A stretch of 45,146 nt of DNA from Bacteroidota bacterium (lineage in GTDB: Bacteria > Bacteroidota > Bacteroidia > Bacteroidales > GCA-2748055). The stretch spans positions 1 to 45,146 of the forward strand of contig JAIFNN010000169.1 of NCBI GenBank assembly GCA_020047715.1, read 5' to 3'. A model generated the notes under the pieces. It saw nothing but the letters and a program-made list of their open reading frames with translations. It was not told the origin of the DNA and made no database searches. Below are positions 251 through 20,917 of this stretch, piece by piece. Made by a program: the position numbers and the translations under genes. The number at the start of each line of letters is the position of its first letter. The stretch's first letter is position 1.

Positions 251-2068
251 TCACGAATGTGTTTTTAATCCTTCCAGATAGATTTTTACCAATTTTGCCT
301 TTTTCTCGCCTAGAATTTCAATCAGTTCATTTTCTGTCAGGTTTTTCATTTCCTCAATGTTACTTACCCTGCTCCATAATTTCTTGAGAGTACTCTCCCC
401 TATTCCGGGTATATTTGTAATTTCCGACTTCAGCATGGAATCAGAACGCTTGAGACGGTGAAAAGTAATTCCAAACCTATGCGCTTCGTTTCTCATTTGC
501 TGGATAAGTTTCAGTGATTCGGAATTTTTATCAATATACAATGGAATCGGGTCCCCCGGAAAATAAATTTCCTCTAGCCTTTTGGCAATGCCGATTACCG
601 CAATTCTGCCCCGCAATTCGAGTTCTTCAAGTCCCTGAACCGCAGCATTGAGCTGTCCCTTTCCCCCGTCCACAATTATTAATTGCGGCAAATCCAGTTG
701 CTCTTCGAGCATCCGGGAATAACGCCGAGAAACTACCTCCTTCATTGATGCGAAGTCGTCCGGACCGATAACCGTCTTAATATTAAAATGACGATAATCG
801 CGCTTGGATGCCCGGGCATTTTTAAAAACAACACAGGCAGCAACCGGGTTTGCGCCCTGAATATTGCTGTTATCAAAACACTCTATATGTATGGGGATTT
901 CTGAAAGTCTCAGATCGGATTTCAGAGTGGAGAGAATCCGGAAGGTGGATTTTTCGGGTGAAATTGAAGCTTTTTGTCGTTTACGCTCAAGCATAAAGTA
1001 CTTGGCATTTCGTTCCGAAAGTTCAAGCAATTTCCGTTTATCTCCAATCTTGGGAACAGTTTGGAAAGAATTTGGCGGCAGACTCTCAAGTAAAAACGGA
1101 ACTATTATTTCCTTTGCATCACTATGGAGCCGTGAACGCACCTCAGTAATGGCGAATTCCAGCAACTCCCCCGGCGATTCATCCAATTGCTTTTTCATTT
1201 CAACCGTATGCGCCTGGATAATAGCTCCGTTAACAACTTTAAGGAAGTTAACAAAAGAAAGATCGTTATCCTGAACAATGGAAAAAACATCCACATTATG
1301 AATTGAAGGGTTAACAATTGTTGATTTAGTTTGGAATTTCTCCAACATTTCAATTTTCTGCCGTATCATTTCCGCATCCTCGAACAGATATTTCGAAGAA
1401 AATTCCAACATGATTTTATTCAGATGGTCGAGTAGGTCCTTCAGGTTTCCTTTAAGAATCAAGTGTATTTGACTAATGGCAGCATTATAGTTCTCCTCCG
1501 TTTGCATAGATTCGCAAGGCGCAAGACAGTTTCCGATATGAAATTCAAGACATTTTTTGATTTTTCCCCTCTGTATATTTTCAGTCGACAGAGTATGCGG
1601 GCAAGTTCTAAGTTTATAGAGTTGTCTTATAAGGGAAAGGATAGTACGCACTGTAGATGCAGAAGTGTACGGACCATAATATTTCGATCCGTCTGAGACA
1701 ATATTCCTGGTAGAGAAAACCCGAGGAAAAGCTTCATTCTTTATACAAATCCAGGGAAAGGTTTTATCATCTTTGAGGTTAACATTATATTTTGGCTGGT
1801 ACTTTTTAATCAGATTGTTTTCCAGAAGAAGCGCATCGGATTCGGTATCGACTACAATATGCTTAACGTCAGCGATTTTTTTCACCAGGATCCGCAGCTT
1901 GTTATTCTCATAATGAGTTTTCGAGAAATAGGATGAGACCCGCTTTTTAAGATTTTTGGCTTTTCCGATATAAAGAAGCGTATCGTTCGCATCGTAAAAC
2001 TGATATACCCCTGGCTTACCGGGCAGGTTGAGAATGGTGTGCTTTAGAATGTCATTTTCCTCTTTCAT
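251..2068 (-). CDS. uvrC: excinuclease ABC subunit C
   Basis: UvrC makes both incisions around a lesion during nucleotide excision repair, acting with UvrA and UvrB in the cytoplasm. The 605-residue product has the full family architecture. A GIY-YIG nuclease domain lies near residues 15-90 (KPGVYQFY, LLYIGKAKNLKKR). A UVR motif for UvrB contact lies near 205-240. The RNase H-like 5' endonuclease domain lies near 380-540, with IECFDNSNIQG and IIVDGGKGQL. A helix-hairpin-helix pair (NIPGIGESTLKKLW) is at the C-terminus. The length is normal. It begins 20 bases after the ade stop on the same strand, so co-transcription with ade and mnmG is likely. Confidence 0.97.
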   Translation of the reverse strand: MKEENDILKHTILNLPGKPGVYQFYDANDTLLYIGKAKNLKKRVSSYFSKTHYENNKLRILVKKIADVKHIVVDTESDALLLENNLIKKYQPKYNVNLKDDKTFPWICIKNEAFPRVFSTRNIVSDGSKYYGPYTSASTVRTILSLIRQLYKLRTCPHTLSTENIQRGKIKKCLEFHIGNCLAPCESMQTEENYNAAISQIHLILKGNLKDLLDHLNKIMLEFSSKYLFEDAEMIRQKIEMLEKFQTKSTIVNPSIHNVDVFSIVQDNDLSFVNFLKVVNGAIIQAHTVEMKKQLDESPGELLEFAITEVRSRLHSDAKEIIVPFLLESLPPNSFQTVPKIGDKRKLLELSERNAKYFMLERKRQKASISPEKSTFRILSTLKSDLRLSEIPIHIECFDNSNIQGANPVAACVVFKNARASKRDYRHFNIKTVIGPDDFASMKEVVSRRYSRMLEEQLDLPQLIIVDGGKGQLNAAVQGLEELELRGRIAVIGIAKRLEEIYFPGDPIPLYIDKNSESLKLIQQMRNEAHRFGITFHRLKRSDSMLKSEITNIPGIGESTLKKLWSRVSNIEEMKNLTENELIEILGEKKAKLVKIYLEGLKTHS

Positions 2069-2088: not shown

Positions 2089-3720
2089 TTACTCATACAG
2101 ACTTGTAAAGCAAAAATTACAACCATCGAACAGCCCTTTATTGCTGAGTTTCAAATCGGGAATAACCAATAAAGCCATAAAGCTAAGGGTCATAAAAGGA
2201 GCTTTTAAACTGCAACCAATTCCCGCAGCAACATTATTAATGTTCTTGTACAGGCTGGCCACAGTTTCTGCCTTTTGATCGGATATAATGCCTGCAATTG
2301 GAAGCGGGATTCCTGTGACTCCAATACCGTCATGAACAGCAACCCCACCCCTGTTATCAATTATCCAATTGATGCACTCGGCGATTTCTGTATTGGATAC
2401 TCCAACGGCTATGATATTATGGGAATCGTGAGAAATGGAACTAGCGAGAGCACCCTTTTTCAGGGAGAAATTATTTATAAATGCAAGGGACGGCATTTCA
2501 TTCTCATACCGGTTGAGAACCGCCATTTTCAAAATATCCTGAGAGATATCCGAAACCAAATCATCCTGTACAGCCTCCAGAGATGCCACAAAAAATTTGG
2601 TGAGCAACTCTCCATCTTCAACTGTTATAACTTTGACACTATTTGATTTTGGTGGAACCACTAGAGAATTTTCCTCGATTCTCTTTGCTTCGAACTTATT
2701 TAAAATTCTTTGTGGGGGAACTTCCTTTAGTCCTTCGAGCCGATCAAAAACTTTTTTACCACCGATATAAGTTTCCGAAACGCGGAATGAAACCAGGTCA
2801 TCGACCCGTATAAAATCGGCACTATTGCCGACCTTTAACAATCCAACCGGCAGATCATAATGCCGAATTGGATTAATTGAAACTGCGCGCAGGAGATTAA
2901 AGAGATTTATTCCCTTTTCTACGCCTTTTTTTAGAAGCTTATTAATGTGACCATCCAGCAAATCATCCGGATGCAGGTCATCAGAACACAGAAACACCAT
3001 ATCGGGAAACTTATCGACGAGGGTCCATAAGGCATCGAAATTCTTGGCTGCGCTACCTTCCCGAATCTGGACAATCATACCTCTTTCAATTTTCTCAAGT
3101 GCCTCCTCGATTCCAGAACATTCGTGATCTGTATCAATTCCGGCTTGAATGTATTTAACAAGATTCGCTCCAGTAAGTCCGGGAGCATGACCGTCAATCT
3201 TGCGCTTGTGTTTTTTCGCAATCTCAATCTTTCTAATTACCTCCGGGTCATCGTAAATAACCCCCGGGTAATTCATCATTTCGGAAAGAAACTTTAGACC
3301 CTTCTTTTCGAAAAGGTATTCGATGTCGTCTGCGGAGATTTCCGCCCCAGAGGATTCGAAACATGTGGCAGGTACACAACTTGGCGCACCAAAAAAGAAC
3401 TTCAACTCTGCACCCAAGGCGTTCTCAATCATATACCGAACCCCATCAAGCCCGAGAACATTGGCTATTTCGTGCGGATCCGAAACGGTGGCCACAGTAC
3501 CGTGAGAAACGGCAATTCGGGAGAAATGCTGTGGAGTAAGCATAGAACTTTCGATATGAATATGGGAATCCACGAGCCCAGGTAGAATATAGGAGCTGGA
3601 CTTTGTTGACGATTTTTCTATAGATTGGATTTTACCGTTTCTTACAACAATTTCCGCATCGTAAATCTCTTCAGTAAAGAGATCCACCAGCTTACCAATG
3701 TGTTTTTGTGATGAATTCAT
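2089..3720 (-). CDS. ade: adenine deaminase
   Basis: Adenine deaminase hydrolyses adenine to hypoxanthine and ammonia in purine salvage. It is an amidohydrolase-fold metalloenzyme. Visible motifs are the metal-binding DSHIHIESSM, a later HAPGL histidine and SDDLHPDDLL, followed by the C-terminal adenine-deaminase domain. I place the start at the ATG at 3718-3720 (MNSSQKHIG, 543 residues). The open frame runs 15 codons further upstream ([11 protein letters not shown]...), but that stretch is simply a translation of two parS palindromes and is a well-known kind of false N-terminus. The gene follows mnmG and precedes uvrC. Confidence 0.92.
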   Translation of the reverse strand: MNSSQKHIGKLVDLFTEEIYDAEIVVRNGKIQSIEKSSTKSSSYILPGLVDSHIHIESSMLTPQHFSRIAVSHGTVATVSDPHEIANVLGLDGVRYMIENALGAELKFFFGAPSCVPATCFESSGAEISADDIEYLFEKKGLKFLSEMMNYPGVIYDDPEVIRKIEIAKKHKRKIDGHAPGLTGANLVKYIQAGIDTDHECSGIEEALEKIERGMIVQIREGSAAKNFDALWTLVDKFPDMVFLCSDDLHPDDLLDGHINKLLKKGVEKGINLFNLLRAVSINPIRHYDLPVGLLKVGNSADFIRVDDLVSFRVSETYIGGKKVFDRLEGLKEVPPQRILNKFEAKRIEENSLVVPPKSNSVKVITVEDGELLTKFFVASLEAVQDDLVSDISQDILKMAVLNRYENEMPSLAFINNFSLKKGALASSISHDSHNIIAVGVSNTEIAECINWIIDNRGGVAVHDGIGVTGIPLPIAGIISDQKAETVASLYKNINNVAAGIGCSLKAPFMTLSFMALLVIPDLKLSNKGLFDGCNFCFTSLYE

Positions 3721-3732
3721 AAGTGTTTTTAA

Positions 3733-3764
3733 TGTTCCACGTGGAACATGTTCCACGTGGAACA
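3733..3764. promoter_or_regulatory. parS: tandem parS centromere sites (two copies)
   Basis: Two perfect 16-base palindromes TGTTCCACGTGGAACA lie head to tail with no spacer, at 3733-3748 and 3749-3764. Each matches the conserved chromosomal parS core (TGTTnCACGTGnAACA) bound by ParB. They fill the gap between the mnmG stop (3765) and the ade start (3720). CACGTG cores elsewhere in the window lack the flanking arms. Confidence 0.93.
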
Positions 3765-5639
3765 TTATCGACCCATAAATAAAAGAAGCACACTAATATC
3801 AGCGGGCGAAACCCCACTGATTCTGGAAGCTTCTCCTATCGTTATAGGCTTAACACGTGCAAGCTTTTGCCTGGCCTCAATGGAAATAGAAGCAAGCTTT
3901 TCATATTGAATATCTTCTTTAATCTTAATTCCTTCAAGGCGTTTAATCTTGTCGGCAATAATACGTTCCCTTTCGATATAACCTTCGTATTTGATTTCAA
4001 TTTCAGCTGATTCCAGGATTTCTTCCCTTCTGGCCTCAAAAAGTTTGCATAGGTCCTCAAGACCTGGAACCAAATGCAATATATCCTTAAGAGATATTTG
4101 AGGCCTTCGAAGAATGTCGATAATTTTGACCTTCTGATTAATTGAAGCGGTTCCTTTATCGAGCAACAATATATTAATGTCGCTAGGTGAAACACTAGTG
4201 GTTTCGAGTAGATAACGGATCTCCTTTTTCCATGCCCTTTTGATAACAAGCAAATCATATCTGTTCCTACCAGCCAAGCCCATTTGAAAAGAAATTTCGG
4301 TCAGCCGATCATCAGCGTCATCCTGCCGAAGTAATAAACGATACTCAGCCCTCGATGTAAACATACGATAGGGTTCATCAACACCCTTTGTAATGAGATC
4401 GTCGATAAGAACACCTATGTAAGCCTGTTCACGACCCAAAACAAATTCTCCTTTACCCTGAACGCTAAGTGCAGCATTAATACCAGCCATTAAACCCTGA
4501 GCAGCAGCCTCCTCATAACCAGTAGTTCCATTGATCTGTCCAGCAAAGTACAAACCTGAAACCATACGGGTTTCCAAAGAATGTTTCAATTGCTCTGGAG
4601 GATAGTAATCATATTCTATTGCATATCCAGGACGGAAAATCTTCACATTCTCCAAGCCCTCAATTTTTCGAAGGGATTCGTACTGCACATTCAATGGCAG
4701 TGAGGAACTGAAACCATTGATATAATATTCTATTGTATCCAATCCTTCCGGCTCCAGAAATAGTTGATGAGAATCTTTGCCGGCAAAAGTATGGATTTTA
4801 TCTTCGATGCTAGGACAATACCTTGGACCAATGCTCTTAATAGTACCGTTGTACATGGGAGAATCTTCCAAACTTGTGCGAATATTGTCGTGAACATCCA
4901 AATTAGTAAACGCGATGTAGCAAGACTTATGTGTTGAATAATCTACATCATAATTCAAAAATGAAAATTTTCGATTTTCATCATCTCCTGTCTGCTCGGC
5001 CAGTTTTGAGAAATCAATGCTTCTTCCATCAATACGAGCCGGAGTTCCGGTTTTCATCCTGCCAACCTTAAATCCCAAGTCCGATAATTGTTCGGAAATT
5101 CCAACTGATGCAGGCTCAGAAGCCCTTCCACCCTCAATTTGGGTACGCCCAATGTGCATAAGACCATTCTGGAATGTTCCGTTGGTAAGAATAACTTTTT
5201 GGGAATGGAAGCGCATGCCCATTTTGGTTACAACCCCACCAATAGCCCCGTTCTCCAGAATTAGTGAAGTAACCATATCCTGCCAAAAATCCAAATTAGC
5301 TGTCTTTTCAAGCAACTCTCTCCAGACAATACTGAACCTGGTTCTGTCACACTGTGCTCTAGGACTCCACATAGCAGGACCCTTAGATCGATTAAGCATA
5401 CGGAACTGTATCATAGATGAATCCGAAACTAATCCTGAGTATCCACCGAGTGCATCAATTTCACGAACCATTTGTCCCTTGGCAACACCTCCCATAGCAG
5501 GATTACAACTCATTTGGCCAAACTTTGTCATATCCATTGTAATCAACAAAGTGTTACAGCCAAGATTAGCAGAAGCCGCAGCAGCTTCACAGCCTGCATG
5601 TCCAGCACCAACCACAATTACATCGTACACCGGTAGCAT
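3765..5639 (-). CDS. mnmG: tRNA uridine-5-carboxymethylaminomethyl modification enzyme, FAD subunit
   Basis: MnmG (GidA) works with MnmE to install the cmnm5 group on the wobble uridine of several tRNAs, using FAD and folate. The N-terminus carries the FAD-binding motif [15 protein letters not shown], and family signatures follow ([44 protein letters not shown]). The helical C-terminal MnmE-contact domain is complete. I chose the ATG at 5637-5639 (MLPVYDVIV, 624 residues). An in-frame TTG at 5657 lies inside the likely promoter. The downstream end abuts the parS pair. In many bacteria this gene lies near the replication origin. Confidence 0.96.
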
Positions 5640-5654
5640 AAATCTAAATTTCTG

Positions 5655-5683
5655 CAAAGATAAATATTTAAAACCAATACAAA
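5655..5683 (-). promoter_or_regulatory. candidate mnmG promoter
   Basis: Read on the minus strand there is TTTG (5683-5680), 17 bases, then TATCTTTG (5662-5655). This fits the Bacteroidota -33/-7 pattern, with a spacer at the short end. Transcription would begin just upstream of the ATG at 5639, which supports that start over the TTG at 5657. Confidence 0.5.
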
Positions 5684-18991: not shown

Positions 18992-19996
18992 TCAGAGTCC
19001 TAATTTTGCGGATATTTCAAGCATTCTTCGAATAGGTATTTCTGCTTTTACCCGGATTTCTTCCTTCAAAGTTACCTCGGGCAATTCATATTTTAAAGTA
19101 TTATAAAGCTTTTTTAAGGTAATCATCTTCATAAACACACAATCGTTGCAGGCACAGGTAGAATCATCAGGGGGTGCAGGAATAAAAAGCTTATTGGGAT
19201 TGGTTTTCTGCATTTGGTGAATAATACCGAACTCTGTTGCCACAATAAAAATATTTGAACTGTCTTTGATCGTATAATTTAACAGAGCAGAAGTTGAACC
19301 AATATAGTCGGCTACGATCAGAATGGTTTGTTCGCATTCGGGGTGGGCAATAATTTTTGCCTGTGGATACTGCTTTTTCAACTCCAAAATTCTTTCAAGC
19401 GAAAAACGCTCGTGAACATGACAAGCCCCATCCCAAATAACCATATTTTCTTTGCCGGTTTTGCTCTTAATGTAGTTTCCCAGGTTTTTATCAGGAGCAA
19501 AAATCACATTTTCCTCTTTTGGAAGACTATTAACAATTTCAAAGGCATTTGAAGAAGTGCAGGTAATATCTGAAAGAGCTTTGATTTCAGCTGTGGTATT
19601 CACATAGGAAATTACAGTATAGCCCGGATATTTGTTTTTGAATTCGGCAAATTTGTCCGGGGAACATGAATCTGCCAGTGAACAGCCGGCATTTGAATCG
19701 GGAATAAGAACCTTTTTCTGGGGAGACAGAATTTTTGCGGTTTCCGCCATAAAATGAACTCCGGCAAACAGTATAATATCGGCTGATGTACTTGCAGCCT
19801 GCTGGGAAAGAGCGAGACTATCGCCAACAAAATCGGCAATATCCTGAATTTCAGGCTCCTGATAATAATGAGCCAAAATTACGGCATTTTTTTCTTTTCT
19901 CAGTTTGTTGATTTCAGAATGAAGATCAAGCGACTTGTCTATTTCTATATCAACAAACCCCTTTTTGATCAGTTCAGCCTTATTAACATTAACCAT
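18992..19996 (-). CDS. nadA: quinolinate synthase
   Basis: NadA condenses iminoaspartate (from NadB) with dihydroxyacetone phosphate to quinolinate, the precursor of NAD. It uses a 4Fe-4S cluster. The 334-residue protein has the family landmarks [21 protein letters not shown], the Cys-bearing [21 protein letters not shown] with TCTSSNA, AHPECE and the C-terminal [11 protein letters not shown]. Candidate cluster ligands are the Cys in GCSLAD, HPEC and CNDC. nadB and nadC are not adjacent. It is the first gene of the transcript leading to ywqK and ruvB. Confidence 0.97.
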
Positions 19997-20473
19997 TCCT
20001 ATTATTATTATATAATTTAAATTTTAAAATATTATATGATGATGATGTTAGTCCGTTAATACTGTTCACAATTATTTTCAATTCCTTTGGCAAGTTTACT
20101 TATAAAATTTTCAAAACATGATATTAACACAAGAATTCATCAACGCATCTTGTAAATCAAACAATTCCAAAGTAATTAACAAGCTGTTAATAGCGTAAAT
20201 TTCTCATAAATATTGTTTTTTCCCAGCATAAAAATTGGTTTAAAAATTGTTGGTTTTCGCACTAAAAACCAATGCTTATTTTTTTGATATTCTGACAATT
20301 TTTATTAGCACTACTGCTTTTTTCTTTTTCTAATTTTTTAGCACTTTTTACTCTCATTTAGTAAACAATTTATCAACCGAATAGTTAATAAATCCTTTTT
20401 GGGAAGGTGCCGATAAATAAAAACAGTTTCAGGTCTTAAAATATTTAAGTATTTTTGGGGATAATTGAAAACC
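19997..20473. other. AT-rich divergent intergenic region between nadA and rpiB
   Basis: No credible gene is seen in these 477 bases. They are visibly AT-rich and must hold the divergent promoters. A TATTTTTG at 20450-20457 could be the rpiB -7 element. A weak hairpin (TTGGTTTT at 20250-20257 with AAAACCAA at 20265-20272) precedes a T-run but follows no gene, so I do not call it a terminator. Confidence 0.6.
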
Positions 20474-20917
20474 ATGAACGAATTAAAAATAGCAATAGCG
20501 GCCGATCACGCCGGTTTTGAATTGAAAGCCGAAATTATGAGTTTTCTTCTTAACCGGGGAATAAAGGTAAAGGATTTTGGAACATATAGTGCGGAGTCGG
20601 TTGATTATGCCGATTTTGCCCACCCGATGGCTGATGCCGTTGAAAAAGGCGATTTCCTTTATGGGATATCGATATGTGGTAGTGGGAATGGAATCAACAT
20701 GACGGTAAACAAGCATCAGGGAATACGTTCGGCGATTTGCTGGAACGAGGAAATAGCAATGCTTGCCCGCTCGCACAACGATGCCAACATTTGTGCCTTG
20801 CCCGCCCGGTTTATTAAAAAGGAGGAGGCCCTAAAGATCCTTGAGGTTTTTTTATCAACCGGTTTTGAGGGCGGACGACATACTCAAAGGATACAGAAAA
20901 TCCCCCTAAAACATTAA
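20474..20917 (+). CDS. rpiB: ribose-5-phosphate isomerase B
   Basis: RpiB interconverts ribose 5-phosphate and ribulose 5-phosphate in the pentose phosphate pathway. The 147-residue product, starting at ATG 20474 (a TTG lies three codons upstream), has the RpiB/LacAB signatures ADHAGFELK, DYADFAHPMADAV, the catalytic-Cys segment CGSGNGINMTVNK, and RSAICWNEEIAMLARSHND. The Rrf2 regulator begins 2 bases after its stop, so the two are probably co-transcribed. Confidence 0.96.
   Translation: MNELKIAIAADHAGFELKAEIMSFLLNRGIKVKDFGTYSAESVDYADFAHPMADAVEKGDFLYGISICGSGNGINMTVNKHQGIRSAICWNEEIAMLARSHNDANICALPARFIKKEEALKILEVFLSTGFEGGRHTQRIQKIPLKH

Follow-up and report, generated by a model that had tools for sequence, protein, structure and literature searches.

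Do the two abutting palindromes between mnmG and ade in this Bacteroidota bacterium form a loading site for the partition protein ParB, and does the lack of a spacer between them matter? In the window, which is the whole stretch of 45,146 nucleotides analyzed here, direct reading gave TGTTCCACGTGGAACA twice at 3733-3764, as two identical, perfect 16-base palindromes with 0 bases between them, just as the initial annotation had described. Both copies were exact matches to the palindromic parS consensus TGTTNCACGTGNAACA. The first (3733-3748, no strand assigned) was kept beside mnmG in relatives, and the second (3749-3764, likewise unstranded) abutted both the first copy and the stop codon of mnmG. 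These were the only two parS matches in the window at up to two mismatches, compared with a mean of 0.09 in shuffled sequences. The draft genome (3.78 Mb, 254 contigs, 87.6% complete), to which all genome-wide counts refer, held two exact parS sites, both at this one locus, and none with one mismatch. At two mismatches, 12 sites were counted with the doublet included, which was no real excess over the 11 of the reversed-pattern control and the noise level. The 16-mer was accordingly not scattered over the draft genome. The missing parts of the draft may hold further sites. A random occurrence would be expected 0.016 times per genome for the exact site and 7e-11 times for an abutting pair. The identical doublet was also present in another genome of the same genus (G409), whose MnmG protein was 90% identical, and it is therefore not an assembly error. 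A search of the window with Rfam gave no match.

The doublet is best explained as the single chromosomal parS locus of this bacterium, present as two abutting sites and predicted to be bound by ParB; we put the probability of this reading at about 0.92. The identification as chromosomal parS is based on the unique sites, which are not expected by chance, on a parA-parB operon in the same genome, on a position beside mnmG shared by nearly all sites examined in the order, and on the closeness to the GC-skew minimum. That doublet is thus a well-supported case of an ordinary chromosomal parS site in a very rare abutting form.

The mnmG gene (gidA; 3765-5657, minus strand) was identified by TIGR00136 (820 bits, cut-off 525), and its stop codon at 3767-3765 touched the doublet. 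Exact parS sites were found in 242 of 393 genomes of the order, with one to five per genome and mostly one or two. In nearly all of the order genomes examined, parS lay at the 3' end of mnmG, with a few cases at the 5' end, and in many loci it started on the first base past the stop codon. The position behind mnmG was conserved across the order. A parS variant, AGTTCCACGTGGAACA, was seen in seven family members (L042, L043, L047, L048, L049, L051 and L054), where its first two bases, AG, were shared with the mnmG stop TAG. A literature search, with poor coverage of subscription journals, found no published account of parS beside mnmG. The initial annotation had also asked whether the tandem spacing was kept in alignments of relatives; it was not conserved beyond the genus, and relatives had either a single site or a pair separated by 9-15 bp and more. 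Doublets occurred in several families, with centre-to-centre distances of 25-26 and 30-31 bp in the family of the window, where other genera also kept a parS doublet with a different spacer, and of 31-47 bp and more elsewhere.

Zero spacing was rare on a wider scale as well. Among 84,980 species genomes, a collection that may omit the window's own genome, the exact abutting doublet was found in seven records from three lineages, namely five Clostridium-group genomes, Chlorobium sp. N1 and G409. Within the sample of the order, it was limited to the genus of the window. The record of G409 (CAMAZH010000006.1, L007) is labelled Chitinophaga pinensis, a label that is probably wrong, as the collection groups it with the window's genus. 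In Chlorobium sp. N1 the doublet stood behind mnmG, and its copies were reverse complements of each other. Its genus usually has one parS, or two that are separated by the length of mnmG, about 1.9 kb, and the N1 doublet is therefore a separate gain. Among the genomes sampled, zero spacing in Bacteroidota was found only in the window's genus and in Chlorobium sp. N1, unlike the other doublets of the phylum, which had spacers of at least 9 bp and resembled the present one in that single or double sites touched the mnmG stop codon or lay near it. The Clostridium-group doublet shared the zero spacing and the place right after a stop codon; in contrast to the present doublet, it consisted of TGTTTCACGTGAAACA twice and directly followed the parB stop (checked in L004), not mnmG.

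The second copy might have arisen when a single functional parS was duplicated locally, as a neutral change that adds nothing, an explanation to which we give a sizable chance, somewhat short of even. It would fit the confinement of zero spacing to one genus, with relatives that have single sites or longer spacers, and many genomes live with one parS. Against it, both copies remained perfect in two species with 90% identity between their MnmG proteins, other genera of the family retained a pair of sites despite the different spacer, and abutting pairs arose separately in Chlorobium, as reverse-complement copies, and in the Clostridium group.

The spacing between close parS pairs bears on what an abutting doublet might do. 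Distances to neighbouring parS-like sites were compared around 165 distinct bacterial sites and 331 viral ones; since the bacterial loci had been fetched largely for holding close pairs, the fair sample is the range of 16-46 bp. Centre distances of 17-22 bp were nearly empty, with no bacterial case and two viral ones, a pair 19 bp apart and a weaker site at a distance of 22 bp. The distance of 16 bp is an isolated value, with examples from three lineages of bacteria and a single viral contig. In a simple reading, ParB dimers require about 23 bp to bind as a pair, except at 16 bp, where they would be 1.5 turns apart on opposite faces of the helix; alternatively, abutting sites are occupied one at a time. 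Many of the viral contigs (L255-L417) had parS pairs at close range; centre spacings of 23-25 bp characterized a large set of related contigs, and one contig (L256) carried an abutting pair. In genus g215 of the same class, as many as six parS-like sites formed arrays (e.g., G584:C1:1003944-1004178), with distances of about 36-61 bp, most commonly 46 bp.

A half-turn helical phasing of the doublets in the order was suggested by these distances. Tested over a span of three periods, the phasing gave p = 0.0035 for all points of the order at a period of 10.5 bp; for the points unused in forming the idea, p was 0.004 at 10.5 bp and 0.06 at 10.0 bp. The values were p = 0.12 for the rest of the class and p = 0.03 for the arrays of genus g215, and the viral contigs gave no signal (p = 0.83). 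Because the species are related and the outcome depends on the period chosen, the phasing is kept as a lead. A more general spacing rule could be formulated, in which 17-22 bp is avoided through collision of dimers, the order prefers half-integral turns (about 16, 26, 37 and 46 bp, on opposite faces), and the abutting doublet, as the smallest allowed spacing, would allow two ParB clamps to load simultaneously. We regard this rule as rather unlikely.

Downstream of mnmG, the mnmG stop TAA (3767-3765, minus strand) overlapped an ATG, as TAATG, that opened a 558-aa frame (2089-3765) running through both sites into ade, the gene for adenine deaminase. The palindromes might be mainly coding or regulatory for ade, as part of its N-terminus or as an operator, rather than a centromere, and the frame was indeed open into ade in both members of the genus. 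This explanation is very improbable. In most relatives the ATG formed by the stop codon and parS soon met a stop codon, while parS was retained, and the site also stayed where uvrC or other genes followed in place of ade. Moreover, position 7 of the adenine deaminase profile (TIGR01178, 581 bits) matched residue 24 of the frame, so that the profile starts near M16, whose ATG codon is at 3720-3718. Since the profile begins there and the frame soon closes in relatives, the extension through both parS sites is likely not real, and the likely true extent of ade is 2089-3720 on the minus strand, with its start at M16. The gap between mnmG and ade is therefore about 44 bp. The claim that the doublet fills this gap held for the mnmG side, where the doublet abuts the stop codon, but the doublet probably takes up 32 of the 44 bp. 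The junction of TAA and parS creates ATGTTCCACGTGG, and spurious MFHVEH or MFHVKQ starts were seen in gene predictions for the window (2089-3765) and its relatives. The next gene, uvrC (251-2068, minus strand; TIGR00194, 514 bits), belongs to the conserved mnmG-(parS)-(ade)-uvrC block, which was syntenic in relatives.

A cognate partition system was present in the draft genome. Contig C111 carried parA followed by parB in a single parA-parB operon, and the ParB of 295 aa was the sole match to the ParB family model. It scored 176-177 bits with TIGR00180 (cut-off 58), matched solved ParB/Spo0J structures and contained the GERR and ENIQR motifs. In Caulobacter ParB, positions 173 and 201 switch the specificity between parS and NBS (PMC7383237). 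The equivalent residues here were R and G (R157 and G185), which is the parS type, while Noc has Q and R; the protein thus lacked the Noc-type set Q/K/K/R, and the sites did not have the NBS sequence. A Noc-like nucleoid occlusion protein as the user of the sites has a negligible probability: although Noc is a relative of ParB and its model gave the present ParB 239 bits, this score was under the cut-off of 315, the recognition residues were of the parS type, the DNA was parS and not NBS, and the sole ParB-family member found adjoined parA. The proposal that the doublet is a ParB loading site was supported by parB beside parA, parS-type residues, and an unscattered palindrome near the GC-skew minimum. 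As regards a ParB-SMC loading system, the best score for Smc (TIGR02168) was 55 bits, below the cut-off, which in a draft of 87.6% completeness may reflect either absence or missing sequence.

The location of the doublet relative to the origin of replication was assessed by GC skew. The cumulative skew of the window dropped to a minimum at 20,378, 16 kb from the doublet, and then climbed. The minimum lay in a gap (19997-20464, no strand assigned) whose AT content, 75%, was the highest of any gap in the window and which separates the divergent genes nadA (quinolinate synthase; 18992-19996, minus strand; PF02445, 416 bits) on the left and rpiB (20465-20917, plus strand; PF02502, 184 bits) on the right. 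This gap is the candidate oriC. No DnaA boxes of canonical form were found in it, and no cluster of them in the window.

Five relatives of the family agreed on this region. The skew minimum of the fetched stretch was inside the syntenic nadA-rpiB gap in G367 and G304, at the rpiB edge of the gap in G223, at the nadA edge in G410, and about 1.1 kb short of the gap in G409, slightly beyond the distal end of nadA. Two closed chromosomes were sampled for skew rather than read whole. In G292, the sign changed about 31 kb from parS, beside nadA; DnaA boxes clustered about 1.8 kb upstream of that gene (L107:2453-2593), and dnaA was 1.24 Mb away. In G327, about 2 kb separated the minimum from parS, with dnaA at a distance of 0.66 Mb. 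In a third relative, G257, the skew was too noisy to place a minimum. The suggestion that the window lies near oriC was thereby upheld, and the doublet can be regarded as origin-proximal. We conclude that the origin region of the order is marked by parS and not by dnaA. The oriC is probably in the window, between roughly 20.0 and 20.46 kb, the exact site being a proposal. One study of Porphyromonas gingivalis sets oriC at dnaA (PMC5771137).

For the doublet as the chromosomal parS locus, a function can be outlined from established knowledge of ParABS. The ParB encoded on contig C111 would bind the sites as a dimer, close into a CTP-bound clamp and slide onto the flanking DNA. ParA would then move the ParB complex, so that the origin region, at a distance of about 16 kb, would segregate first. 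The two copies most likely serve ParB loading either redundantly or as a double site, and their spacing may have an effect. The initial annotation had raised an influence of zero spacing on cooperative loading or clamp release as a possibility; the confinement of zero spacing to one genus, next to relatives with longer spacers or single sites, speaks neither for nor against it. The locus resembles the chromosomal parS of Bacillus subtilis, Caulobacter, Pseudomonas and Corynebacterium in the 16-bp palindrome TGTTNCACGTGNAACA, the origin-proximal position, and the presence of ParA and ParB in the genome. Unlike in those systems, there was one locus with two copies and no spacer, parAB was on another contig, and dnaA was not the origin marker in the closed relatives.

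The combination of a zero-spaced doublet with the nearly empty range of 17-22 bp offers a natural test of the loading of ParB clamps side by side. A likely origin at nadA-rpiB rather than at dnaA bears on estimates of replication rate and on the rotation of genomes in this group. Finally, the doublet identifies a putative chromosomal centromere for an uncultured lineage of Bacteroidota.
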